From Antedon mediterranea (Eukaryota > Echinodermata > Crinoidea > Comatulida > Antedonidae): a stretch of 64,000 nucleotides of DNA. The notes under the pieces were generated by a model, which had not been told where the DNA came from, made no database searches, and was given only the letters and a program-made list of their open reading frames with translations. The DNA lies in the NCBI RefSeq assembly GCF_964355755.1, contig NC_092676.1:5066288-5130287 (forward strand). The letters are read 5' to 3'. This document shows, in pieces, positions 23,713 to 64,000 of this stretch (the first letter of the stretch is position 1; each line of letters starts with the position of its first letter). The translations under genes and the position numbers were made by a program.

Positions 23713-24627
23713 CAAAAAAAAATTAATAAATTAATACAGACATAAAATAATGGTTTTATCATTTAATTAAATTAGTTTTAAAACAATTATTGGAAAATAA
23801 ATGTCTTCAATTTTTAAAATTAATTGTGTACCTGAAAATTGAGGTCAAAGTTGACTTGATAACGATTATGTTGTAATCATCATGTTGTTTTCATTAAATG
23901 CAGTACTTTGTAAACAAATGCAGTTATATGTTGCTGTGATATTTAAAAATATCACAAATTTTATTAATTAATTTGTTTTTAATAAATATAAAAGTGAAAT
24001 GGTCTTTGTTTTTTTAGAGTGACATTTTCAAACAGACGAGAGAAATTGCTGGAGTTCTCCTTTAAGTTTTTGAGCAACCGTCTGGGTTTGTCGTACATGT
24101 TGAGGGCGTGCTTTAAATAATAATTATTTTACACTCGATTGAAAAACATAAACAATCAGATGTCGGTGTCTTTTTGTTACACGTTTGTTTAGGAATTCGT
24201 CCGCGAAAAAATATATCCGTGAGTAGAATTTGTTGTAATACTGTATTTATATTTAATTAATTGAGTAGTATACCGTGAGATTCACAAATATGCAGTTATA
24301 GTATTTAACAAAATAATTGGCGACACTTTGTAAGCCTAGGCAAGGCGTAATAATAGCTGGCAGTTGGTTAAGCTTGGACCGGATAGTGGTCTTAGTAAGT
24401 GCAACTCAAGCAATGTGTCTAACCACAGCAGGCGATGTATTATCCTAACTTTTGCTTGTGATTGGTCAACTTACTTTCGTTGCGCTTACGTCCTTGTGTT
24501 GCGTTACGTCCTTGCGTCCTTGTGGACTGTTGCGCTTACGTCCTTGTGTTGCGCTTACGTCCTTGTGTTGCGCTTGCGTTGTGTTGACTCCTATGGAACG
24601 CCTCCTCTGCCTTCAGTTCACATTTAT

Positions 24628-24930
24628 CATGCAGTACACACCAATCGTCATGCAGTACACACCAATCGTCATGCAGTACACACCAATCGTCATGCAGTAC
24701 ACACCAATCGTCATGCAGTACACACCAAACGTCATGCAGTACACACCAAACGTCATGCAGTACACACCAATCGTCATGCAGTACACACCAATCGTCATGC
24801 AGTACACACCAATGGTCATGCAGTACACACCAATGGTCATGCAGTACACACCAATCGTCATGCAGTACACACCAATGGTCATGCAGTACACACCAATCGT
24901 CATGCAGTACACACCAATCGTCATGCAGTC
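24628..24930. repeat. 21-bp minisatellite, left palindrome arm
   Basis: About 14 copies of CATGCAGTACACACCAAT plus a 3-base variable end (CGT, GGT or ACGT-type). The unit length is a multiple of three and free of stops, which opens long false frames on both strands. Confidence 0.92.
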
Positions 24931-25266: not shown

Positions 25267-25450
25267 ACTGCATGACGATTGGTGTGTACTGCATGACCAT
25301 TGGTGTGTACTGCATGACCTGACGATTGGTGTGTACTGCATGACGTTTGGTGTGTACTGCATGATGTTTGGTGTGTACTGCATGACCATTGGTGTGTACT
25401 GCATGACCATTGGTGTGTACTGCATGACGATTGGTGTGTACTGCATGACA
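25267..25450. repeat. 21-bp minisatellite, right palindrome arm
   Basis: About nine inverted copies of the same unit (GGTGTGTACTGCATGAC). A small insertion (CATGACCTGACGATTGG) disturbs the register near 25315. Confidence 0.92.
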
Positions 25451-31800: not shown

Positions 31801-34317
31801 AATTTGTAATGTAATATCCTCCAGTTGATACCACACAATACAACACTAAGCACCGTGTCACCAATGGTAGAAGGATGTTTAAGCCCAGGGACTTTGCAAC
31901 CCAGAGGCGATTTGAGTCCAAATAAATAACGTTAGAGGAGAGTATGTTTGCGAACAATTTATTGTTTGTTTTATCGGGGGGGGGGGGGGGGGTTCAAACT
32001 TAAAGCCATTATGACTTATTGCCTCCACTCAATCAAATGTTTTATGATTATTTATAAGTACAAATGTATATATAGTGTAATATGTTGTGTTGATATTACG
32101 ATACGTCCCTAGGGTGAAACGTATCTGAAAATAACTATAATTTATATATTGTATGATTTTCTTTTCAGAATAGTAATTGAAGAAATTTTAAAAGTGAACA
32201 AAAAGTTAAAACGCAGATTACCTGATAATTTTCAAGATTTGGGACCAGTTGAAAAGGTTAAAAAATTTGTTTTAATTTTGGTTTAATACTTTAAGTAAGA
32301 GCACACTTTTTTTTTTTTTTTTTTTTAATTCTCATTTTAGGCAATTGCCAAGGATTACCACAAGTGAATTCATTCACTATCCTTCTCAAAGGTGGCAATC
32401 CCATTCAGAAGACAAACATATACACAAGATGCTCTACATAAACAAAGACTTATTATTAAGTCTTTGGGAGTGGAGTTGTAATTGTAAACACTTTACCTTA
32501 ATACTACTGAGAAATTGTGTTTTCAATATATTTCCATCTCTCAAAAGCTCTGTCTACACTGTCAAACTAGTTTGACAAAAAAAGTGTGATGTGCCCAAAG
32601 GACATGATAATGTCATATCACTACCATGTTGGGCACATCACACTTTTTCTCTAAAGCCTTCTACATTAAAATAAACTAAAATTATACATTATTAAAGTAA
32701 AGTTTTTACCAATACAATGATTAAAGATGTATTGTCTCCTAAAAACATGAATAATGAAGGTTAATAAAAAAAACTTTTAATAGATCATTTTGCAGTTTAA
32801 TAAAGGTAATCACTTTTGCAAAAAAAAAATGTCACTTATAAAAAACAAATAAACAGTTAAATTCAACCATAAACCCATTGACTTCCAGTCAATTTAACTA
32901 TTTTTTGCTTTAAATTACAGTTTCTTCAGGTAAATAATTTTTGTTTTGTATCCAATTGAATAACTATTATGTTCCCACCATATTGATCGAAACGTCTAGA
33001 AACACAACAATTCTTTTCAGAACTAATATGCGTGGTGTACTGCAAACATTGACATTAAAATGGCGTATTCAACCAAAAAAATTTTAAAAATTAATTTTTC
33101 AGGGGTGACAATATATCTTTAAATCCAACTTATTGGCAGAGGCCCACAGTACCTGTATATAATATAAATACATATTTATATTTTCACAACTTGAGACAAC
33201 CAAGGCTGTTGATTTAAACCTTGGTTTTTATTATGTAATAGGATAAGTAATACCATGAAATAATTCTATTATTAGTATTAATAAAACAAAGCAATGTCAG
33301 ATACTGTACATGACCCTGAAGTGTATTACAATAACAGAAAATAATTTGGGGTGTGTTACATAAACAAATTTATTTATTTGAGTTTATGTTAAAAAACATT
33401 TCTATTGCTTGTTTGCTTGCATAAAAATTGGTTTATCCACATCAAAATTCTTTTAAAATGAATTTTAGGGCTTGTGATTATTTTTTTTTTTTTTTTTTTA
33501 TTACTATTTGCTGTAACAAAGTATAAGTCTATAAATTCAATCAATTTTGTTGTATTATTTTATATTTAATACAATGGATAGCTGTCTCATTTGAGTTACA
33601 TCAGTGTTCTTTGCACGGTTGGGACGTATGCGCAACTTAATAATTAATGTAACCAATCACAAGCAACAGTTCAGGTAGTTCTTTGTTTCTGATTGGTCAG
33701 ATTGCATTTGTTGCATCTACGTCCTTGCGTTGTGTTCTAGTGTAACCACTCTTTCAGCTACCCCTTCCCAGCCTTTGTTGCATCTACGTCCTTGCGTTGT
33801 GTTCTAGTGTAACCACTCTTTCAGCTACCCCTTCCCAGCCTTTGTTGCATCTACGTCCTTGCGTTGTGTTCTAGTGTAACCACTCTTTCAGCTACCCCTT
33901 CCCAGCCTTTGTTGCATCTACGTCCTTGCGTTGTGTTCTAGTGTAACCACTCTTTCAGCTACCCCTTCCCAGCCTTTGTTGCATCTACGTCCTTGCGTTG
34001 TGTTCTAGTGTAACCACTCTTTCAGCTACCCCTTCCCAGCCTTTGTTGCATCTACGTCCTTGCGTTGTGTTCTAGTGTAACCACTCTTTCAGCTACCCCT
34101 TCCCAGCCTTTTCTATTTATATATCTGTTTTTTATTTTTTTGTAATTATGCTGGTCGAATAAACAAAACAAAAATAATACATGATACATTATTTATTATA
34201 ATTATAATATTTTTGTTGTAGGTTTCCACGTTGATGCGTTTGATGCCAAAAGATATTTTAAAAAGAGGACGTGAAGTGAATGATCAAGCAGTGCATGAGA
34301 TCAATAAAATAACGTAA
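25832..34317 (+). CDS. JmjC-domain 2-oxoglutarate oxygenase, type II membrane protein
   Basis: Eight coding exons: 25832-26181, 28091-28199, 28925-29074, 29679-29784, 29930-30071, 31244-31426, 32169-32256, 34222-34317. All phases join, giving 407 residues. I start at 25832 (MTKPKKRKIV) because TTTCAG at 25824 is an acceptor, so the longer frame from 25751 reads intron. A Lys-rich cytosolic N-terminus is followed by one hydrophobic helix at residues 44-63, so the rest is probably lumenal or extracellular. The JmjC core shows H237-I-D239 (LHIDPYNWTGTNAV), a likely 2-oxoglutarate lysine at about 257 (GLKKWKLYEPG), and the third iron ligand H325 (GWFHQAYNDD). The Fe(II)/2OG chemistry therefore looks intact. 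The substrate is unknown; the membrane anchor argues against a histone target. The seventh donor (AAAG/GTTAAA) is weak. Introns hold MITEs and several tandem repeats. Confidence 0.88.
26327..26642. mobile_element. MITE family C copy 1
   Basis: Begins TTAAAGATGT and ends GGGGGACAATGCATCTTTAA, the inverted ends of the family. The interior has ATGACAAAATAATTGG and CACTGGCTGGCAACCAA. In JmjC intron 1. Confidence 0.75.
26801..27305. mobile_element. TA-flanked 0.5-kb inverted-repeat element, copy 2
   Basis: Same ends and interior as 10020-10518, flanked by TA at 26799 and 27306. The few differences suggest recent mobility. The 73-aa frame inside matches the analogous frame in copy 1 but is only the inverted repeat read through. 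Confidence 0.85.
27905..28637. mobile_element. Cluster of four MITE family A copies
   Basis: Copies at about 27905-28062, 28236-28377, 28387-28517 and 28527-28637 flank JmjC exon 2 (28091-28199). The second and third are almost identical, pointing to local tandem duplication. Seven perfect CArG words (CCATATATGG or CCATATTTGG) fall in the last three copies. Confidence 0.8.
29250..29350. repeat. Dispersed repeat shared with 52344-52400
   Basis: GGGACTTTACAAAACACGAC, GGAAAGCCACAGGATGG and GAGCTTAGCGTGAAA recur 3' of lectin-receptor gene B (52344-52410). Nature unknown. Confidence 0.5.
30388..30530. mobile_element. MITE family A copy, inverted
   Basis: GATGTGCCCAAATATGG through TTAATAGTGTAGACAGAGCT. 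Two CCAAATATGG words. In JmjC intron 5. Confidence 0.75.
31430..31790. repeat. 22-bp minisatellite grown from a JmjC splice donor
   Basis: About 16 copies of GATTATGGGTAAATGTGCATAG, starting at the exon 6 donor. The junction itself reads CTATGA/GTAAGTGCATA, clearly related to the unit (TTATGG/GTAAATGTGCATA), so most units carry a donor-like GGTAAA. (The unit is written here in two halves: GATTATGGGTAAA and TGTGCATAG.). Confidence 0.9.
31976..31992. repeat. Run of 17 G
   Basis: Uninterrupted G homopolymer on the plus (coding) strand of JmjC intron 6. Such runs form G-quadruplexes and are prone to length errors in sequencing. Confidence 0.9.
32548..32650. mobile_element. MITE family A copy, short
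   Basis: CTCTGTCTACACTGTCAAAC terminus, GGACATGATAATGTCATATC core and GGGCACATCACACTTTTT. No intact CArG word. Confidence 0.75.
32721..33122. mobile_element. MITE family C copy 2
   Basis: TTAAAGATGTATTGTCTCC start and an inverted GGTGACAATATATCTTTAA end, with about 50 extra bases relative to other copies. JmjC intron 7. Confidence 0.75.
33706..34110. repeat. 67-bp tandem array, six near-identical units
   Basis: A 67-base unit containing CATCTACGTCCTTGCGTTGT, TCTAGTGTAACCACTCTTTC and AGCTACCCCTTCCCAGCC is repeated about six times with no visible differences, ending about 110 bases before the last JmjC exon. Part of the unit (CGTCCTTGCGTTGTGTTCTA) resembles the TIR of the element at 45252-45575, so the array may have grown from a transposon end. 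Confidence 0.92.
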
Positions 34318-38889: not shown

Positions 38890-41800
38890 ATGAGGTGTCT
38901 GGTAGCCGTATGCCTGGCGCTTTTTACGCTAGAGGTTTCTTCTTTGCGATGTCCAACAAATTGGAAATTGTTTGAAAACAACTGCTACATGTACAGTACT
39001 CGGGAGTTGAAGAAAACCTTTTGGGATGCTTCTGAATATTGTCAAGCGCAACAGTTTACTGCCAGCGACGGGTAAGATTTACATCAAGTTTTGTTGGTTT
39101 TAATTTTAGGGGTTTTCCGTAATAATTCGAGACGCTCCTTGTCATGTTAGTAAGGTAGTAGCCTACTTAAGTCGTCTTTAACGATGAAAATCGCCTTGGT
39201 CTTTATAATTATTGACAGAAAAAAAGCTTTTACAACTGCAATAATGATGGTTATGTTATAGTAATTATTTCTCCCAATTAGAATTGAATCCTCCAGCGAA
39301 TTGACATCAGTTCACAGCTCCTCTGAAAACGCATTCTTGTTTTCGTTGGAGCCTTCAAAGACCTTCTATATTGGAATGTATCGTGAGAGCAAAAATGATG
39401 ACTTCAAATGGCTTGATGGCACAAAGAAGGATTATGTGAGTTGGGCGCCAAACCAACCAGATTCAAATTCACAACACGTGGCAGTTATGTGGGATTATAC
39501 TAAAACACTCTGGGATAATCAAGCAGACACAACTTCACTGTCGTTTGTGTGCAAGACTGGCGCGGACAAATGTCTCCAGTCGGTTGGTGAAGGTATGTAG
39601 GCCTACAAAGATTCTCTTATTGTCAAAATACGTAAATATGTAAAATTCGTACACTTCCCCCGAAACATAGGAACTGAAGCGGATTGGATATCAACACTAC
39701 AATAATGTTCTGTTGTGTTTCCTTTGAAGGTAATGGCTGTAGAAGAGGTTGGCCAATTAAAGATCGTGGCAATCCTGACAGCAGTGGCTGGACAATGGTA
39801 TCTCCAGATCAAATGTTCTCCTGTAGTGGTCAAGTTACGAAGTGGACATATTACTCCAAAAGTACTGCATCGTTCAGAGCTATAGTATTTAGGCAGATAG
39901 ATGGTTCTGAAACCGAATTTGAAATTGTCGGTATCAATGACATCCCGTCCAGTAAATCTGACACAGAGGTCACTTACATAGTACCTGAAAGTGAACGCAT
40001 TACAGTTGAGCCAGGGGATGTGATTGGATGGTCATTTGGAGAAAGCGTTATAACCTACAATATTGCAGGAGATGTAAAGGTCCGTTGGGTTGGAGGCAGT
40101 TTGTATGCAGGCTTGACAACTGGCCAGACAATTGACATTAATACTGGTGTTGACGGTCGAGAGTACTCCATCGAAGCACAAGTCGGTGATGAAAATGGTA
40201 GGAAGTTGTTTTTTTTAAAATAATATAGTATAACATTTTTCCTTTCCAACATCCTCATATCTCTTTATTGTTGCATCAATGTGCTTCTTTCTGATTATTC
40301 AGAGGGAAAATTATTGTGATGATTTGCAATTATGACAAACTCATTCCTGGATATGTTTGGTCAGATCGTGGATGAAGTAGAAGGAACCTCCATGGTCAGA
40401 TGTTTTGCCCAGCTTTGATTTAATTGTACTTGTACTGAGGAAACACTTTTAAAACAAATTCTCGCGAATTATACTTCCAAATTGTTTTACAACTGTGTAC
40501 AGTACAATTCAGAGTAAGGTAGATTAAAGACTCTCTGGCGCCGCGAGCTACTGGATAAGATTCTATCCAGGCTGGCAGTATTTGATATAAAGTTTGCGGT
40601 ACATCACGTGTAGTTCTGAAAAGAACTGTTGACTTTCTCTAACTTGATATTCTTTTTAGTCTTTTTATGCAGAGTCGATGAAGACTGTGTCAAAGGAACG
40701 TGTAACGCCAATGGAAATTGCGTCTGTCCTTCAGACTACTCCTGTGTTGATTGTTCTCTCTATGACGGTGAGTTACTGTTAAGCACTAGTTTTCAACGTA
40801 ACGTTTTCTTATAACTATCTTAAGCTTGGTTCCCACTAGCGACGCAACCTACGCAACATAAGCCCTTCCAATAACTGTGTTTGCCCCCGTCTGCGTGAAA
40901 TCAAACTTTTCAAGAACTGTTGCGTTGTCGGTTCCCACTTGTGATTACGCAATACATCACTTTGCGTCAATACGTCGCTGCGTTGCGTTCTAGTGGAAAC
41001 GGTAACCACGCTTTAGTGGCGAGGAGTGGCAAGGTGGTTAAGGCAGTGAGAACCGTAGTGTTCGAGGCTCACTCGCTCCGTGGTTCTGGTGGTAGAACGA
41101 GTCTTCTCCACGGATACGGACTATAAACCGTAGGTCCAGTGTACACATTACCCCGGTGTACTAGTACACACACAGTCACTGTCAGGCACAGCCACTTATC
41201 TAAAGAGCCGCACGTCCTTCAGGAAACAACAGTGGCTTTCCTGTTATTGCAACTCCTGTGCCAACCAAATGAATACAAATAACATAACAAATATCAAACT
41301 TGATCTGAATCATCATCAGTAAAGATTTCTTTCCCTCTTCCAAACTCATTGATGACGATCGGACTGTCACTCAATACTTTAACAAGTGTCTTGGTATCTG
41401 TTACAGCATGCCAAAGTAATCCTTGTCAGTCAGGAGGTATATGTGTAAATAATGAGGAAGATAGGATGTATTCATGTGACTGCCCTGAGGGATTTTATGG
41501 AAGCAATTGCGAAATAATTACAGGTATGGTGCACTTTTGATTCATGTTAAAAATGCATGATACAAATTCATGTATAATATGCGATTATGTTACAAAGAAA
41601 TAAGAAACATACAGTATGGGTTTAGTTTTTTTATGTGAAGTAAGTAACAAAGAAAAATACTAGTCACCTGATTTGACTGATATTTTGGATCCATTTTATC
41701 TGTCTACACTCAAACTATGTGAATATATGATGTGCCCATGTGACATGATGATGTCATATTACTACCATATTTGGGCATAACACACTTTTTTGTCAAACTA

Positions 41801-44800
41801 GTTTGATAGTGTAGATAGAGCTTAAGAAGTTAATGAGTTTTTATTTTAAATTGAACTATAAGTCAGATCATTTAATTTAATATTATTGTTAGATGGTTGT
41901 AACAGTGCTCCATGCCAAAACACAGGAACTTGTCATCCAACAACTCAAGACCCGTTCTACGCATGCTCTTGCGTATGGCCGTGGACAAACGCAACTTGTG
42001 AAGAGTACGCTGGTAAGTTACGCGCATAAACTCATCATATTAAAAGCGTTTTAAATAATCTTTTGTGTTAGAGAATCAGCGTATAAGTCATTTTGAAATA
42101 TTTTCCCGTTTTCTAGGATGTTCAAGTAACCCTTGTTTAAATGGCGGAAGTTGCTCCAATGGAGATAGTCTGTTTACTTGTGATTGTCAAGACGGATTTT
42201 CTGGAACATTTTGTGAAATAATTGATGGTAATTCTTTATTTAAGTTAAGAAGATTTACTCCTTTTTATTCGAAATAATTGTAAATACATAACTTCTTATA
42301 TTCACTGCTAACTATACTTTTCATTTAGTTTGTCAAAACAGTCCATGTTTATCTGGTGGAACTTGTGTAAGTGAAGATGGTGGAGAATATTCTTGCGATT
42401 GTTCAACTGGTTTTTCCGGATCCAATTGTGAAATTGTTCCAGGTACGTCCAGGCTGTATTTAATATGAAATAATGGAATAATTGCGGTATATCACTAGGC
42501 GGTTTGAAGTTCCTCTATACCTGTAAATGTATAATTATAATAATAATGATAATAATTGACTACTTTATAAATTGTATAGATGAATGCAGTAACACTCCTT
42601 GTCAGAACGGAGGAACGTGTCTATCATCACCCCAGGAACCATTCTACGTATGCGCATGCACGTGGTCATGGACAGACCAAAATTGTGACGTGTACGACGG
42701 TAAGTTACGCGCGTAAACTCAAGAGATCTCTTTAATTTTGTTTTTAAAAAACGAATCCTTTCTTCTTTCATATGTTAAATAATCGGTTTATAAGTAAGTG
42801 TCTTTAATTCGTTTTCTTTTAAAATTTATTTTAAAATATTTTCCATTTTGTAGGATGCTCGAGTAACCCTTGTTTAAATGGTGGAAGTTGTTCCAATGGA
42901 GATAGTCTGTTTACTTGTGATTGTCAAGACGGATTCTCAGGATCATTTTGTGAAATAATTGATGGTAATTGTTTTATTTGTATAAGTTACGAGTGCTCAT
43001 CTTTATTCTAAATTGTAGATCCAACTGTTTGTAATTCTTGGCTATTATTTTCCTACAGTTTGTCAAAACAGTCCATGTTTATCCGGCGGAACTTGTGTAA
43101 GTAAAGATGGTGGAGAATATTCTTGCGATTGTCCAACCGGTTTTTCTGGATCCAGTTGTGAAATTGTCCCAGGTACGCCGTTATATATTATCAAATAATA
43201 ATCATTCTTTTTAAAATTGCAGTAAATTACTGTGCCGAAGTTCTTCTATGCCAGTAAATGTATATGATTATTTAAACATATAATTCATAACATTTGGCTA
43301 TCTCATTAATATAATAGATGAATGCAGTAATACTCCTTGTCAGAATTCAGGAACGTGTATATCGACAACCCAGGAACCATTCTACTTATGCGCATGCGCG
43401 TGGTCATGGACAGACGAAAATTGTGACGTGTACGACGGTAAGTTATGCGCGTAAACTCTAAGTATTTCAAACTCCAAAAGATCTCTTTCATTTTGTTTCT
43501 TAAAAACTAATCGTTTTCTTCTTTCATGTGTTAAATAATCGGTTTATAAGTCAGTTTTCTTTAATTCTTTTTCTTCTTTTTTTAAATAACCTATATTTTG
43601 ACATTTTTGTAGGTTGCTCGAGTAACCCTTGTTTAAATGGCGGAATTTGCTCCAATGGAGATAGTCTGTTTACTTGTGATTGTCAAGACGGATTCTCAGG
43701 AACATTGTGTGAAATAATTGATGGTAATTGTTTTATTTGTATACGTTACGAGTTACTCTTCTTTATTCTAAATTGTAGATCCAACTGTTTCTTCTTGGCT
43801 ATTGTTCTTATTCTTCAGTGTGTCAAAACAGCCCATGCTTGTCCGGTGGAACTTGTGTAAGTCTTGATGGTGGAGAATATTCTTGTGATTGTCCAACTGG
43901 TTTTTCTGGATCAAATTGTGAAATTGTCCCAGGTAAGTTTTTCGCAATTTAAATAGGAATATTTAAGTGTAGCTGATTGAAAAAAAAACGTTTTGGTACG
44001 GTGCCTTTACACACCAATTCATTAATTATCCTCCACACATGCGCCGTCTGCCTTTTGTAAAATGATTCTGTTCCCATGTGAATATTGTCTGTTTTATTCT
44101 TTTAAAAGTATAGAATCGATTTAGTTTTAGAATCTTTATTGAAATTGTTTCTTTAATTTAATAGATGGATGCCGTAACACTCCTTGTCAGAATTCAGGAA
44201 CATGTCATCCAACAGCGCAAGAACCGTTCTACGCATGCGCTTGCGTATGGCCATGGACAGACAAAAATTGTGACGTGTACAACGGTAAGTTACGCACAAA
44301 CATGTTTCTGTTGATATTACAAGTTACCGATGCCGTACAATTATTTGAAATCATGTTTTGACTTTTTACTAGGATGCTTGAGTAACCCTTGTTTAAATGG
44401 CGGAAGTTGTTCCAATGAAGATGGTCTGTTTACTTGTGATTGCCTAGACGGATTTTCGGGAACATTGTGTGAATTCGGAAATGTTGACGGTAAACAAAAA
44501 CCTTTACTTTTACTGCACGATGTTTCATTATTTTATGTCGCTCAAATGATGTTTTACACTCGTGCAATAGGATTGAGAAAAAATGTTCACAGAAAAGACA
44601 AGAAATGTCACTTTGACTGTACTTTGCTTTCTTTTGAGTTCATTTTATTTGTTTATATTCTTTATAATCGTTCAGTCAAAGTCAAATTCTGTTTAATTTC
44701 AGCTCTTGTTTTATCATCGCCAATACAGGAGTCTACAGTTTGGCCTACTAATCGAATTATTCCTGCAAATTTAATTGATAACAGCGGTAAGAAAAGAAAG

Positions 44801-49057: not shown

Positions 49058-52000
49058 ATGAGGTGCCTGGAAGTGTGTCTTGTTCTGGCTGTGTCCACTC
49101 TACAAGTTTCGTCGTTGCGATGTCCGACGAATTGGAAATTGTTTGAAAGTAACTGCTACATGTACAGTAGTCAGAATTTTAAAAAACATTTCTGGGATGC
49201 TTCAGCATATTGTCAAGAGCAAAAGTTCACCACAAGTGAAGGGTAAGTGACCGCTTTGAAACAAGATGTGCTTAACATGCGGTATCGTAAAATAATTCTA
49301 AATGGATTCCGTAAAATGTTTTTCAATGTTTTTTCATATGATGCTGATAATTAAGCTAGTCGTTCATTTTGATTGGTTGTATCAAGAATTTGCATATTCA
49401 AAATGGTGGTTATCCAAAAACATATCAGCATCCAGGACTAAGAAGCCTCTTCTAGTTAGCCTATTGGGTTAAGCAGTGCAGGGCTACCTGCTCTTGCTCT
49501 CATTGTTATTACTACCCAAATTATAGGCCTATTTCTTTATTAGAGAGGTTTTGAAAACAGATACGTCATAACTAGATTTTCGTTTTCTTAAAGCCACGTT
49601 AACGTCTAGTTCATATCGCAACGAAATATTGAGGGCGCCACCAAAAATATGACAGTGGTAAATTTGAACTTAGTGCATATACACGTGTCTCATCTGTAGA
49701 CTGTATAGGCCTAGCGTACCCTGTAGGCCTAGCGTACGCTGTGTAGGCCTAGCGTACAATTAGAGCAAGCGAGAACTTTTATTGCTACTATTCTATTTCT
49801 CGTCATTTATGTTAAGTATGACATGAACATTCTTTTTATTTAGAATTGAAACAACTAGTGAATTAGCATCAGTTCACAGTTCCTCAGAAAATGCATTCTT
49901 ATTTTCTTTGGAGCCTTCCAAACCGTTTTTCATTGGGATGTATCGTGAGGACAGAAACGATGATTTCGAATGGGTAGACGGCACGAAAATGGATTATGAG
50001 AATTGGGCGCCCAACCAGCCTGAGTCAAATGGACAGCACGTGGTGGTTAATACTGGATCAGTCTGGGATAATGAAGCTGACAAACCACTAGCGTTTGTTT
50101 GCAAGACTGGTGCAGATAAATGTCTCCAATTAGTTGGTGAGGGTAGGTAGGCCTACACATAATTCTTTCCTTCCATTTTAAATGTATATGGTAGACGTAT
50201 ACCTTACTAACCAAACTGTGAAAGTAGGCTGAATACATCAAGTTAGGCCTATGTCAATGTTATTGATTCATTTATAACTGTATGTCTCATAGCGAGAAGT
50301 TTGCATTTAGATTAGTAGGCCTACGCCTTACGGTGTCTCACTCGGACATTTATAACATTTTACCTTTTTAAGCTATTTACTTTACAGAAGGCGGAAATGG
50401 TTGTAGAAGAGGCTGGCCAATCATAGATCGTACGCATGTTGACAGCAGTGGTTGGACAATGGTTTCTCCTGAACAAAATTTCTCTTGTAGTGGTCAAGTT
50501 ACGAAGTGGACATATTATTCCAGAAAATTGAACTATTTCCGAGCCGTGATATTCAGGCAAATGAAAGGTTCTAACACTCGGTTTAAAGTTGTCGGTTACA
50601 ACGACATCCCACCTAGTACTTACAACGGAAAACTTAGTTATGTAGTGCCTATAGCCGAACGCATAGCCGTAGAGCCTGGTGATATGATCGGATGGTCATT
50701 TGGAGACAGTGTGATAACGTACAACTACGGAGGAGAAAGCTATAATGTTAGATGGGTTGGTGGTCATCTGCATACAGGTTTGGTACCTGGCCAGGTAATC
50801 AACATCAATGATGGCGTGCAAAAACGAGATTACTCTATCGAAGCACAAGTCGGCAATGAAAATGGTATTGTATTTACACAATAAATACTAAGTCAATTAT
50901 TCTTTTTTTTTTTGTAATGCAGTATTATTGCGACATTGCAATAATTGGAAACCTAGGTGGCCCTACTCCTCGGTAGGCCTACACCGACGACAAGCGCTCC
51001 GAATTTAAATTTTTGTTTTCACGACTTATTTAACATTAGTCCTGGACTAAAGATAGACACAGTTCCAGATAGTAATATTGGTTTGGTCCAGGATTAAAGT
51101 TATTCCTCTTTCAAGATTATGGCTATTGATTGAACAGGTTTGTGAGCATAATTCTACTGGAAAGCTGTATTGTCGAGTTGGTATTGGCACGTCGTAAAAA
51201 TGATAAGTTTCTATTTTAATAGAGACTTTTAAAAGCGTTTACAATGCAGGAAAAACGAGCGATTACATACCTCCTTGGCGGAGGTAAAATAATTCGTGGT
51301 CTATAAGTCTTAACAGCAGTTTTTATACTTACTGTATCGTCTTCTTCTCCTCTCTTTAGCTTATATATGCAGGGTTGACGATGACTGCACGAAAGGAGCA
51401 TGCCATGAGAACGGACAATGTTTTTGTCCACCGGATTTTTCTTGTGTAGACTGTTCTCTTTATAATGGTATGTCTTGAGACGAATTCTTTGCAAAAAACA
51501 TAGGTCCGCATACTGAGGCCAACTCGTACGACGCTTTCTTAGTTAGCCTTTGCAAACACCGCATAAACTGATTGAATTTGGGGGTAAATTCTGATTTTTA
51601 CAGTCTCTTCCCAAGTTATGGCAGACAATAGCTGTCTATTTTTCTTTCTTGCGGGCTCAATTATCCGATATTCTTGTCTCAGCTTCCGTTCCTCTCTCGG
51701 TATCACAATCACCTTCCAAGTCTATCGATCAGTTAGCCTACCTATAACTGTATGTATTTATTTTTTTCTGCTATACCTAGCTTGCCAAAGTAATCCTTGT
51801 GGACCAGGTGGTACGTGTGTGAACGACGAAGAGGATGAAATGTATTTTTGTGAATACCCTACGGGATTTCGGAACAATTGTGATGTTGTTAGAGGTACGT
51901 TACCTTAAGTCAAATACTAATGTTTATTATAATTCCAAATAAAAGAACACAAATACAATTAATTTTGAAAATTTTAGTTACAAAAGAAATATATTTGGTT

Positions 52001-54434: not shown

Positions 54435-57400
54435 ATGAAGTCAGTAATTTTTGTAGTGTTATACTTATCCGTTGCATCGTCACTAAGATGTCCGTCTCAG
54501 TGGAAGAGCTACCGGTCTAATTGTTACAAATCTTTTCCTCAATCAAAACTGTTTTGGGATGCTTCAAACTTTTGCCGACAGCAACAGTTTTACTCTTTGG
54601 ACGCGACTCAAAGGTAAGATATTAGAAACAGTTTTCCTCTTTGGACGCGACTCAAACGTAAGATTGTAGAAACAGTTTTACTCTTCGGGCGCGACTCAAA
54701 CGTAAGATTGTAGAAACAGTTTTACTCTCTTTGGACGCGACTCAGAAGTAAGATAGTAAAACAGTTTTACTCTTTGGACGCAACTCAAACGTAAGATTGT
54801 AGAAACAGTTTTACTCTTCGGCCGTGACTCAAACGTAAGATTGTAGAAACAATTTTACTCTTTGGACGCGACTCAAACGTAAGATTGTAGAAACAGTTTT
54901 ACTCTTTGGACGCAACTCAAACGTAAGATTGTAGAAACAGTTTTACTCTTCGGCCGTGACTTAAACGTAAGATTGTAGAAACAGTTTTACTCTTTGGACG
55001 CGACTCAAACGTAAGATTGTAGAAACATTTTTACTCTTCGGCCGTGACTCAAACGTAAGATTGTAGAAACAATTTTACTCTTTGGCTATGACTCAAAGGT
55101 AGGAAGATAATACTGTAAATACATTCGTTGACCACGACTCAAACGTAGGATAGTAATACTGCAACAGTATTCTTTAGCCGCGACTCAAGTGTTCCCAACT
55201 TGTAGAAAGTATGCCTACTGATGAAGACGTCACTCTGATGGTGACGTCAGTCTGATGGTGACGTCACTCTGATGGTGACAATAGAATAATTCATGACTTT
55301 TAGTAGATAAAAGATTGATTGATTTTTTAGTGTGCTCTAAGCGTAACTGTGATCTGTGATAATGTATCTCATGCTGTATATTATATTTAAAAACAGCCAT
55401 TTTGTTATCAATAAAATATTTTCTTTTACATTTATAAAAAATATAATTTTCAATACTTGTACTTGATATGCAGCGGTGATAACATCCACAGCGAATTAGT
55501 CTCAATACACAGTCTTGCTGAAAACACGTTCGTGTATAGTCTCGTACCACCTCGCCGTACCATCTTCCTGGGATTGTATCACAAAGTAGACGAAGGACAG
55601 AGGACATGGCATTGGACAGATGGAACACCGTTTGACTATAGTAGATGGGCCCCGAATCAACCTGATCCGTCTCACCAAAAATTTGGCACTATGTGGAATG
55701 AACGTTTTCCACAACAATGGGACGATGCTGACTGGGTTCAAACTGGTGGCGTGCCGTTTGTTTGCAAAGTAAAGGCTGCCAATTGTCTTATAGCACCGGG
55801 GGAACGTAAGTGGAATTTGTATTCATAGTTAGAATCCATACGGCATAGCCCGTACTGTGTCCAAGATTATGATCGACAATCATAGCGACAATGTTGTTGC
55901 AGGCAGCGCAGCGTCAGATTGCTCATTAATAAAATCAACCCCTTTCCTGCTGCTTAAAAAAAAGAAGAAGAAAACCCGTCAAAATGTTTAGTAAGTGATA
56001 ATGGAGTGTGAATGTCCATCACTTTATAGAAAATCATTTTGAAAAATGTAATAATGTATTTGGTATTTTCCAGTGATAAGTGATAGTAGAGATTGTCTAA
56101 ATGGCGGTAAACTTGTTGGGACTAGCTGTGAATGTCCGACACCGTATGCATGTATAGACTGTTCCTGGTATAATGGTAATTATTCTATATTATGAAATAT
56201 TAGAAAGTCTTTTAAGGTTGTTCCAATGTGTAAACATTAAGGGTCATTTCAATAATACCATTACAAAAACACACACATAAAAAATAATTATGTTGGCATC
56301 TTAAATTTTATTAATGATACGATTTAGATATTCGTCTGATGTGCACAATGTAGTGTATGGGTTCAATCTGTCGAGTCTTGGTATCCAAATCTTATTAGAA
56401 TTCTCTCAAATCAAATTTTATCATTTAACAGGTTGTTCAAGTAACCCGTGTCAGAATGGAGGAACGTGCGAAAATAAAGACCACAGTTACTCTTGCAAAT
56501 GTGTCGATGGTTTTACAGGAACTAACTGCGAAATATATAAAGGTATATTACATAGCGGGTTCAAGAGTAGCATAATTGTAGCGGTAGGATCGAGTATGAG
56601 CGGGTCAACAGTGGTAGGTGTTGATTGTGGCAGAGTCGAGAGTCGTAGGGCCTTGATTGTGCAGGATGTGAGAATGCTAGAATCAAGACTTGATACGAGA
56701 GTTTAGGTTCGAGAGTGGTATATAAGACCAAGTAGCAGAAACGACAGTGTAGCAGCAGAAAGCATGGGTAGTAGCATAATGAGTAGGCCTAACAGGGCGA
56801 GTGTATTTATTTATTATTCAAGTATTATATATGTTGTTGTTGATTATTAATTTTCAACGTCATTTTCTCTTACAGGTTGTATGCAGTTTCCTTGCTTGAA
56901 TGATGGAGATTGCATGAAACATCCGAACAAGTCAATATTCATATGCACATGCCCAGAAGATTATACTGGAGTAACTTGTCAGACGTATATTGGTATACAA
57001 AGCATATATTAGCCTATACACCAATAATAATACACGTCGACCCAATATAATAATAATACAATAATTGCCATTATTATTCAATATACTTAGTATTTTACTG
57101 TGAAGAACCTGATTTTTTCTTTTCTCTAATGTCGCTCGTTTTGTAGTAGGCCTAATATCCTTTTTACTCCAATTTATGTTTACATAAATGATAAATAAAT
57201 TTGAGTTTATGATGCAGTTACTGTAATCAATTCAATCTAACAACATGATGCTGAGCTTGCCTTGCCAAGATAGGAACTTGTAACAGTTTTGGCTGTGGCT
57301 GCGACAAATTCATATTTGTGGTTACAGTAGTACCCAGTACATCATTCCCCGGTTTCTGTTCAGGGACATGGAACTGATCGTGTCGCAACCACACATGAAA

Positions 57401-59106
57401 TCTTTGATCTAACGGAGCTCAGAATCCTGTTGTTAGATTGCTGCAATGCAATTTGTTGACCCATGATTACGCCAGAAATACTTACTACTGCTAAATATGT
57501 AATGCAGTAACTGCTATGTTGTTGACATATCCCCATTGACATTTCTTTTGTAATACACTATACCAAGATAGACGGTAACATCTGATTTTGAATTGTTAGG
57601 CCATTGTCAAGACGAACCGTGTCAAAATGAAGCCACTTGTCATTCCATCTCAGTGTCACCTTTTTACGTGTGCCAGTGTAAGCCTCCATACGTGGGCATC
57701 AATTGTACAGCAACTAGTTACGGTAAGTAATTCATTCCTCTACCTCTATTTAATTACCTTTATCCGGTACGAACAAAAAAGTAGGCCTACTTAGCCTATA
57801 AGGTGCTATTTTCTTGTTTTGTTTGCTGTTTGAACGATAGGGTCCACTATTTTTAAGATATCGTCTTGAATGTTTGGGTATTGATTTTATGAAATTCGAA
57901 ATATTGATGACATCACAAATGCTTATTAAAATCTCGAGTTTTTTTGTGTTTTCCAATATATCGAAATATTAAATAGCGCGCCCTCTGTCGGTATCTATTT
58001 TGCCAAGTATTTCACTCAGTTTCCGAGTTCAATTTATTCTTTAAAGATGTATTGTCCCCCAAAAACAGGAAAAATAAAGATTAATTTAATCAGACTTTTA
58101 ATATGTTATTTTGTTGTTTTAATAAAGTTAATCACTTCAGTAGAAAAAAAAAACTAAATGAAATATTGTTTTCACTTATAAAATGACAAAATAAATGGTT
58201 AAGTTCAACCAAAAACCCATTGGCTGGCAGCCAATTTGACCATTTTTTTCTTTAAATTACAGTTTTTTTTCAGGTAAATACATTTTTTGTATCCAATATT
58301 TGGTCAAAGTGGATAACTATTATGTTACATTAAAATGGCATATTCAACAAAAATTTTGTTAAGAATTATTTTTTAAGGGGGACAATACATCTTTAATATT
58401 TATCATGGTTTAATTCTAGGCTAATGGTTACTTTTATGTGCATTACACAAATATTTTTAACATTAGTCGTCTCCAAATCCAATTTCTTACTAATATTTCC
58501 TCAATTGGTAATGGATTTTGTTAAAGTGTGTAGGCCAACCGTTCCAATAACGAATCGGGATATGTTAATGAGCGTCAATGTTTTTCCGTTATGCAGATTG
58601 CCTGAGTAATCCATGCCTGAACGGAGGCTCGTGTGTAACTAATGACCGCTTGAATAAAACTAGTTGCCTGTGTCCGTCCACCTACTTCGGAACTAATTGT
58701 GAACTACAGAAACGTACCGGTAGGTTATTATCGTCTGCGCATGCTTACAACCAATTTCAATTCTCTCAAATCTCTTTCTACACAAAATACGTATCGAACT
58801 TCAACCAACTCTCACCACACTACAGCATTCTCTCCAGTTGGGGCGGGGAGATGCCGTTTTCTTACAAAATATTAATATGCGCATGCGCGATTTCATCTAA
58901 TGAATAATTCATTAAATTTACTTTTTACAGAAACGTCAGCAGTAGTTGGTACTGGTGGTAGCCAATCAAACTCCAACAACAATGTACATGCGTCATTCAT
59001 CGGAGTTACCATTGCGTTGATAGCTATAATCGTTATTCTTGTTGCTTATATTATCCGAGTCAGATCAAGACGTTATATAGATAAAGATGCTTCTTTTGTC
59101 AGGTAA
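54435..59106 (+). CDS. Lectin receptor C: C-type lectin, EGF modules, TM; lacks the beta-rich module
   Basis: Eight coding exons: 54435-54613, 55474-55805, 56074-56175, 56432-56542, 56876-56992, 57600-57722, 58597-58719, 58931-59106; 420 residues, phases consistent. Signal peptide about 1-16; C-type lectin domain to 170 (CPSQWKSYRSNCY, GLYHK, WAPNQPD, QWDDADW, FVCK); EGF-like exon 171-204; EGFs at 205-241 ([13 protein letters not shown]), 242-280, 281-321 and 322-362; TM about 382-404; tail RSRRYIDKDASFVR. The beta-rich exon found in A and B is absent between exons 2 and 3. The tail resembles gene B more than gene A. Again the stop comes from a donor-like AG/GTAAAA, and an acceptor-like TTTAAG at 59572-59577 followed by a short frame offers an alternative 3' exon. 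Exon 1 ends in a 44-base minisatellite. Confidence 0.86.
54585..55190. repeat. 44-bp minisatellite made of an exon end plus splice donor
   Basis: About 13 copies of a 44-base unit starting in the coding exon. The unit is the last 29 bases of receptor C exon 1 (CAGTTTTACTCTTTGGACGC, GACTCAAAG) plus 15 intronic bases (GTAAGATTGTAGAAA). Later copies keep AA(C/A)GTAAGA, so each carries a donor-like site. Units decay toward 55190. Confidence 0.93.
58041..58396. mobile_element. MITE family C copy 4
   Basis: TTAAAGATGTATTGTCCCCC to GGGGGACAATACATCTTTAA, perfect inverted ends. Interior CCCATTGGCTGGCAGCCAAT. In a receptor C intron. Confidence 0.85.
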
Positions 59107-61838: not shown

Positions 61839-64000
61839 ATGGCATCGTCAAGTCGGTATGTTTATTTTGAGAATACATTACATTACTTCCTTATCAATAT
61901 GTCGATGTGTATATTTCTTTTATTAAGATTTCTAGGTATGTTTGCGTCACCTGGCCTAGGCATACAGAACATGTTACACATTGTTTTGTATTTAGATACA
62001 GTTCTTACAAAATCAATTTTATTATTACCTAACTAACTTAATTGTCCAGAACTGATTATAAATATTTGGAGAACACCGGTACGGTGCAGACAAACTTTGT
62101 GGCAGTTCACCCTCAACACAACTACTGTATATTATGCTACTGTCACATACTGACCGATATTATTATTATTTTTATCATCTTGGTATATAACTCTTTGCCA
62201 AAAAATGTGATAAAATCTCAAAATTTAAACCAATTTAAAACCGCACTAAAAAACCACTGGTCTAACCACCCGTTAAAATACCCATGTAAGAAGAATATGT
62301 TCTGGTCACGAGGGGCACAGAAGCATTAATGCTTTAAGTCTTAAAATCCTGGTAGGTTGATCATAAACCTAAGTGATAAATAATAACAAAATGACGTCCT
62401 TTATTTTTATCCATAGCAAGCCAACTGTAGTATGCCCTCATCATCCAGACAGCAACTTAATAGAGGACTATCACGCCGGTGATTTGATTTGCCCAGAATG
62501 TGGTCTTGTTGTAGCAGACAGGTAAGCTACTTTCTGGACAGCTACTTTCTGGACAGCTACTTTCTGGACAGCTACTTTCTGGACAGCTACTTTCTGGACA
62601 GCTACTTTCTGGACAGCTACTTTCTGGACAGCTACTTTCTGGACAGCTACTTTCTGGACAGCTACTTTCTGGACAGCTACTTTCTGGACAGCTACTTTCT
62701 GGACAGCTACTTTCTGGACAGCTACTTTCTGGACAGCTACTTTCTGGACAGCTACTTTCTGGACAGCTACTTTTTAGGCAGAGGTTTAGATACTGTAGTA
62801 CATCTAAATTCGTGCATGACAACCCTGCCAACTCGAGTCGCTTTATAAAAAGCATAAAAGAAAAATAATAATAATAATATAAAAAAAAGATAAATAAATA
62901 AATAAAATATAAGAAATAAATACAAACAATCATTATACCAAAATCAGCTGTGAATATTGCCACCATACCAATTAGTTCAGTGATAATCAACATGATGATT
63001 GTGGGGACTCATAACGATGAAGATGAAAGAGATAACTTATTCTGTTTCAGTCTCAGAAAAAATGCTTCATGGCCATGATGTACAGCTCTACAATTTTCAC
63101 ATCGTAGAGCTGTTGGCTAGCGCTCTTGTTGTGCACTGTTCAAGTCTTGTACAGTCTATACAAAAAAAATGCAGCACGCCTTAAATAGTCCATGGCTGCA
63201 AAAATTGTATAGTACAGTCAACTCTCCCAATACCCGGACTCTCTGAACACTGGAAGCTCTCCCAAAAAAAAAACTTTTCTTGAGTTCCAAAATGTCCCAA
63301 TTTTATTTTTACCACTAAACACACTCCGAATACCAGACTTTCCATAAAACCAGACAAATTAGGCCAGCCCAAAGGTGTCTGGTATTGGGAGTTTGACTGT
63401 GTTATACAAGTTTTACAGCCATGGACTATTTAAGGCCTACTGCATTTTGTTTTGTTTTTTTACAGCACAACATTGATATGATTAATTCAAAAACATACTG
63501 TAATAAGAATTAGCCATCAAACATAGCTGTATTATAAGATCTGATACGAAAAATTTAACTTTTTTTTTGTAGAGTTATAGATGTTGGCTCTGAGTGGAGA
63601 ACGTTCAACAATGAGAAATCTGTGAGCGATCCCTCTCGTGTTGGCGCTGCTGAAAACCCCCTGTTGAGCGGCAGTGACTTATCAACCGTGATTGGTGCGC
63701 CCACGGGATCTGCAGGATTCGATGATTCTGGTGGAGCTAAATATTCACAAAAACGTAATGTAAGTATAGTAGTAACTACTAACATATAATTTCTAGTATA
63801 CAGTTCTGTAGGCTACCCAATATTGTTTTTACACCTGGAAAGCTAGTCAGTAATAAGAATCCGGTATAAATGATAAGGGCAAGAAAAATCTATAGCCGAA
63901 TATTAAATTCAGTGTTCTTTTGATCAAATAGTTAATTTTACACTTTAGATGTGGTTACCCCTTTCTCATTTTCAGAGTGTTGGGCCAGAAATGACAATTA
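61839..64000 (+). CDS. GTF2B: Transcription initiation factor IIB (TFIIB), 5' part, runs off the window
   Basis: Coding exons 61839-61855, 62417-62521, 63573-63759 and 63976 to beyond 64000; phases match and about 111 residues are visible. TFIIB bridges TBP-bound promoters and RNA polymerase II in the nucleus. The N-terminal zinc ribbon is intact: C12-P-H-H15 and C31-P-E-C34 ([20 protein letters not shown]), as in the animal family with its C-x2-H...C-x2-C pattern. The B-reader/linker follows ([36 protein letters not shown]). Intron positions fall just after MASSSR, at VADR and after KRN. The two cyclin-fold repeats lie outside the window. Oddities: a 15-base minisatellite starts at +5 of the second donor, and an unusual promoter-bearing tandem duplication lies upstream. 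Confidence 0.95.
62526..62775. repeat. 15-bp minisatellite at the GTF2B exon 2 donor
   Basis: 16-17 nearly perfect copies of GCTACTTTCTGGACA begin four bases after the donor (GACAG/GTAAGCTACTTTC). Only the last copy varies. Very low divergence implies recent expansion and likely length polymorphism. The 119- and 178-aa frames through it are artefacts. Confidence 0.95.
63180..63433. mobile_element. Inverted-repeat element with pogo-like inner ends
   Basis: Outer inverted repeats CTTAAATAGTCCATGGCTG and its complement (63415-63433); inner ends ACAGTCAACTCTCCCAATAC and GGTATTGGGAGTTTGACTGT. A half copy lies at 20990-21100. In GTF2B intron 2. Confidence 0.75.

Follow-up and report, generated by a model that had tools for sequence, protein, structure and literature searches.

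A 44-nt minisatellite spanning the exon 1 splice donor of a crinoid C-type lectin receptor gene

The closest described counterpart of the array reported here is a VNTR in the human CBS gene, whose original paper (Lievers 2001) is said to report alternative splicing as well as the repeat itself. The CBS unit of 31 bp lies across exon 13 and intron 13; designated c.1444_1467+7(16_21), it joins 24 exonic to 7 intronic bases and occurs 16-21 times, the individual units differing by substitutions (PMC2630376). According to a review, higher repeat numbers are associated with reduced CBS activity and raised homocysteine (PMC5188458). New introns are also known to arise by tandem duplication of sequence that spans the border of an exon and an intron, as in potato RdRp (PMC4974935).

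An array on a similar plan covers a splice donor in the DNA examined here, a window of 64,000 nucleotides (the whole stretch analyzed) from Antedon mediterranea. The best explanation, with a probability of about 0.8, is an ordinary minisatellite in which most donor-like copies have been weakened: the authentic donor at 54614 would be used in most cases, and rare use of a copy downstream would produce nonsense mRNA.

The lectin receptor gene and its array

The host gene, lectin receptor C, comes last in a tandem row of three paralogs encoding C-type-lectin/EGF/transmembrane receptors, with A starting at 38890 and B at 49058. Gene C combines the features of a C-type lectin receptor: a lectin domain, a signal peptide (called by eye from the sequence, without a predictor), EGF repeats, and a transmembrane segment. 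When its exons 1 and 2 are joined the frame is open and the product matches Pfam PF00059 (E 7.5e-07). EGF exons follow at 56434-58720 and the transmembrane segment at about 58993, up to which the predicted gene appears intact. The donor at 54614 is regarded as real because exon 1 has domain homology and because paralogs A and B have phase-2 donors at the equivalent place (CGG/GTAAGA at 39072 and AGG/GTAAGT at 49243, respectively; the slash marks the exon end).

Two further features of the paralogs were noted. A domain of about 157 aa at 39729-40199 in A and 50393-50866 in B is 67% identical between the two; it has no Pfam match, and tblastn finds no copy in gene C. The EGF exons of gene A at 42119-43934 are amplified as near-identical blocks, with three copies each of two sequences, indicating recent internal exon duplication.

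Table 1. Features of lectin receptor gene C and of the 44-nt array (window coordinates)
Feature	Position	Strand	Remarks
Lectin receptor C exon 1	54435-54613	+	Signal peptide and first half of C-type lectin domain; ends in phase 2; from tblastn and translation
44-nt array overall	54583 to about 55201	+	14 in-register copies, donor-anchored
Founder unit	54583-54626	+	Last 31 bases of exon 1 and first 13 of the intron; donor AAG/GTAAGA
In-frame TAA stop	54615-54617	+	Met by any transcript using a downstream donor
Main intronic array, 44-nt copies	54627-55085	+	Donor-like sites: nine AAC/GTAAGA, one GAA/GTAAGA
Higher-order stretch, three variant units at period 132	54771-55034 (approximate bounds)	+	From lag-3 identity
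Copy 12 donor AAG/GTAGGA	55096-55104	+	Matrix score 8.3; U1 duplex -9.2 kcal/mol
Degenerate terminal copies 13 (AAC/GTAGGA) and 14 (CAA/GTGTTC)	55114-55201	+	
Exon 2 (rest of lectin domain)	55474-55805	+	Acceptor AG 55472-55473; donor AAC/GTAAGT at 55806

TRF reports the 44-nt unit in 11.4 copies at 54583-55085 (89% matches) and a degenerate 46-nt continuation at 55090-55188, and segmentation anchored on the donor resolves 14 copies of the unit in register. Both bear out the sequence-only reading that the end of exon 1 and the start of the intron form a 44-base unit multiplied about 13-fold. The units run head to tail with high identity and fall within the 10-100 nt of a minisatellite; 10 unit matches were found, against zero expected from shuffled sequence. 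The whole expansion sits inside one pre-existing intron, intron 1 of lectin receptor C. Dividing the unit into 31 exonic and 13 intronic bases fits the left edge given by TRF, and 29 plus 15 is another choice of phase.

The GT of copy 1, at 54614, is authentic; those of copies 2-7 lie at 54658, 54702, 54748, 54791, 54835, and 54879, and those of copies 8-14 at 54923, 54967, 55011, 55055, 55099, 55145, and 55189. The spacing is 44 nt except at three steps, of 46, 43, and 46. GTAAG or GTAGG is kept in 13 of the 14 copies, counting the authentic exon end, and copy 14 is degenerate. Units three apart have an identity of 0.93, compared with 0.87-0.90 at other lags, and the units at 54791 and 54923 are identical to each other; these similarities show that three-unit blocks were duplicated. 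The GTAAGAT core is invariant across copies 1-11. This could be explained by constraint or by homogenization, and it counts as a point against an ordinary minisatellite.

Directly 3' of the array, still in intron 1, is a 17-nt repeat (CTGATGGTGACGTCACT, 3.6 copies, 55218-55279), within which lies a CRE-like palindrome, TGACGTCA.

Origin of the array

The array matches a single place in the 354-Mb genome and has no further copy elsewhere in the 64-kb window, which eliminates a dispersed repeat or transposon as its source. Nothing significant was found in intron 1 of paralogs A and B, so an array inherited from a common ancestor of the paralogs is likewise out. At the exon end, ahead of the donor, A and C have CAACAGTTT and GACG in common; the exon is therefore ancestral, and in C it gave rise to the array. 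Growth from exon to intron, in gene C only, is supported by this comparison because the exonic founder is present in both A and B, neither of which has an array. The minisatellite would have started at the 3' end of exon 1 in gene C and then expanded into intron 1.

An array over a splice site is unsurprising given that the window is rich in minisatellites. Those with a unit of at least 10 nt and at least 3 copies make up 6.2% of its length. With 25 inferred donors, random placement at this coverage puts about 1.5 donors in arrays, and so one is unremarkable. By the same criterion, twelve 10-kb samples elsewhere average 11.7%, a mean dominated by one satellite sample (L059) and including one that is all N (L051), with most of the others at 0-8%. 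A genome-wide count of arrays bearing AGGTAAG three times shows no excess (380+999, versus 1889+472 for a reversed-pattern control).

Other repeats in the window were also noted. A 21-nt satellite unit, TCATGCAGTACACACCAATCG, forms arrays at 24627-24929 and 25267-25449 that lie a few hundred bases apart in opposite orientation, making a large inverted repeat. Two minisatellites have copies that are 100% identical (33707-34111, 67 nt x 6; 62525-62773, 15 nt x 16.6), which suggests that they expanded or were homogenized very recently.

Donor strength and reading frame

Donor strength was scored with a matrix built from the 25 donors inferred in the window, 54614 among them. This local matrix was preferred to one of human donor frequencies, though only 25 inferred donors stand behind it, and both give the same top two sites. 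The authentic donor scores 10.3 (9.5 leave-one-out) within a range of 5.3-13.5 for the inferred donors. Nine copies score 6.2, and 55145, 54748, and 55189 score 4.2, -0.6, and -4.0. The computed pairing with the 5' end of U1 is -9.5 kcal/mol for 54614 and about -4.6 for most copies. The donor of copy 12, at 55099, is the only copy rivaling the authentic donor in U1 pairing (Table 1). The copies are thus barely strong enough to count as usable donors, this one strong exception apart.

The sequence-only reading had called every copy near-authentic, which overstates the case. At position -1, C occupies 10 of the 12 later donor-like copies and A one (54748), leaving G at 55099; among the 25 inferred donors of the window the same position is G in 23, T in 1, and C in 1. 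A single G-to-C change, arising early and then propagated as units were duplicated, suffices to produce such a pattern. Selection against competing donors would predict it too, and the data fit both alike. To dismiss the copies as non-functional owing to C at -1 is nevertheless too strong, as AAC/GTAAGT appears to be the donor of exon 2 in the same gene. This donor, identified by homology, suggests that C at -1 may be tolerable when +6 is T, and it weighs against the ordinary-minisatellite reading in that the array copies cannot be written off as dead. The corresponding exon 2 donor of paralogs A and B has G at -1.

One possible role for the weak copies is to bind U1 snRNP without splicing and thereby suppress premature polyadenylation at an intronic AATAAA (55410-55415). 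Such suppression by U1 is established in vertebrates, and many GTAAG cores do lie upstream of the AATAAA in this one intron. However, most copies pair weakly with U1, AATAAA is common in AT-rich DNA, and the site is itself only a candidate. A landing array for U1 is accordingly rated highly improbable.

The consequence of choosing a downstream donor is set by the reading frame. Since intron 1 is in phase 2 and begins with GTAAG, reading through the donor at 54614 yields AGG TAA. This stop lies ahead of every downstream copy, and therefore neither copy number nor multiples of three matter. For each of the 13 downstream GTs, the transcript constructed runs into a stop at codon 61, and no downstream donor keeps an open frame. 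Paralogs A and B, which have G/GTAA at phase 2 too, share the property.

These results dispose of the suggestion, made from the sequence alone, that every third copy (132 bases) would keep frame and yield lectin N-termini of variable length. It is true that 44 x 3 = 132 is divisible by 3 and that a 132-nt higher-order period is present. But the 46- and 43-nt spacings break the rule (the added lengths divisible by 3 are 177, 309, 441, and 531), stops are present in all three frames of the array, and the in-frame TAA makes the rule moot. Protein isoforms from alternative donors are ruled out by that TAA barring stop-codon readthrough, and the proposal is almost certainly wrong.

The same stop would suit the other option raised by the sequence-only reading, control of output by nonsense decay. 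Downstream copies, chiefly 55099, might act as poison donors that divert splicing to nonsense mRNA, with copy number tuning the amount of lectin C like a rheostat. Every alternative donor would bring an immediate stop, 55099 almost equals 54614 in U1 pairing, and in human CBS, of like architecture, lower activity accompanies a higher copy number (PMC5188458). On the other hand, the -1 G is missing from 11 of the 12 later donor-like copies, and the array is not conserved, the paralogs being without one. Such a rheostat is considered unlikely. The fuller version, in which the amount of this invertebrate receptor expressed varies from one individual to another with repeat number, is slightly less likely again. 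Weak donor competition yielding some nonsense mRNA is possible.

The ordinary-minisatellite reading predicts that splicing occurs mostly at the first and strongest donor, 54614. If a downstream copy, likeliest 55099, were used now and then, the resulting mRNA would stop at codon 61 and be directed to decay; use of a downstream donor would yield no longer protein. The array is probably repeat overgrowth and not a device for varying the protein.

Relation to known boundary-spanning repeats

As it stands, the locus illustrates that a minisatellite can overgrow a splice site without obvious harm to the gene, because the strongest donor comes first and the -1 G is lost in most copies. If copies are used, it would also offer a natural test of splicing choice among many near-identical donors.

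Two known systems share part of this arrangement. In intron gain of the potato RdRp type, boundary-crossing tandem duplication likewise creates extra splice signals (PMC4974935), whereas no new intron or exon is proposed here and the extra copies lie within an existing intron. In CBS 844ins68, at the intron 7/exon 8 junction, a splice boundary is also duplicated and splicing picks one of the competing sites (PMC2630376), but that is a single duplication with a known functional consequence and not an array.

The likeness to the CBS VNTR is closer. In both, the unit consists of an exon end and an intron start, so that each copy re-creates a donor (PMC2630376, PMC5188458, PMC1395315); the founder here holds the real exon end and intron start and spans 54614. 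Copy number is similar, and the units of both arrays differ by single nucleotides. The unit sizes differ, 24+7 = 31 nt in CBS and about 31+13 = 44 here, as do the gene and the animal, CBS being human and the present gene a lectin receptor. Furthermore, the CBS repeat is reported to be polymorphic and to be linked to enzyme activity, whereas the array described here is known from one assembly. The kind of structure is already known, and this array is a fresh example of it in a lectin receptor gene, with CBS as the direct precedent for its architecture. If its copies are used, it would join human CBS as the second clear example of a repeat that spans such a boundary and affects gene output.
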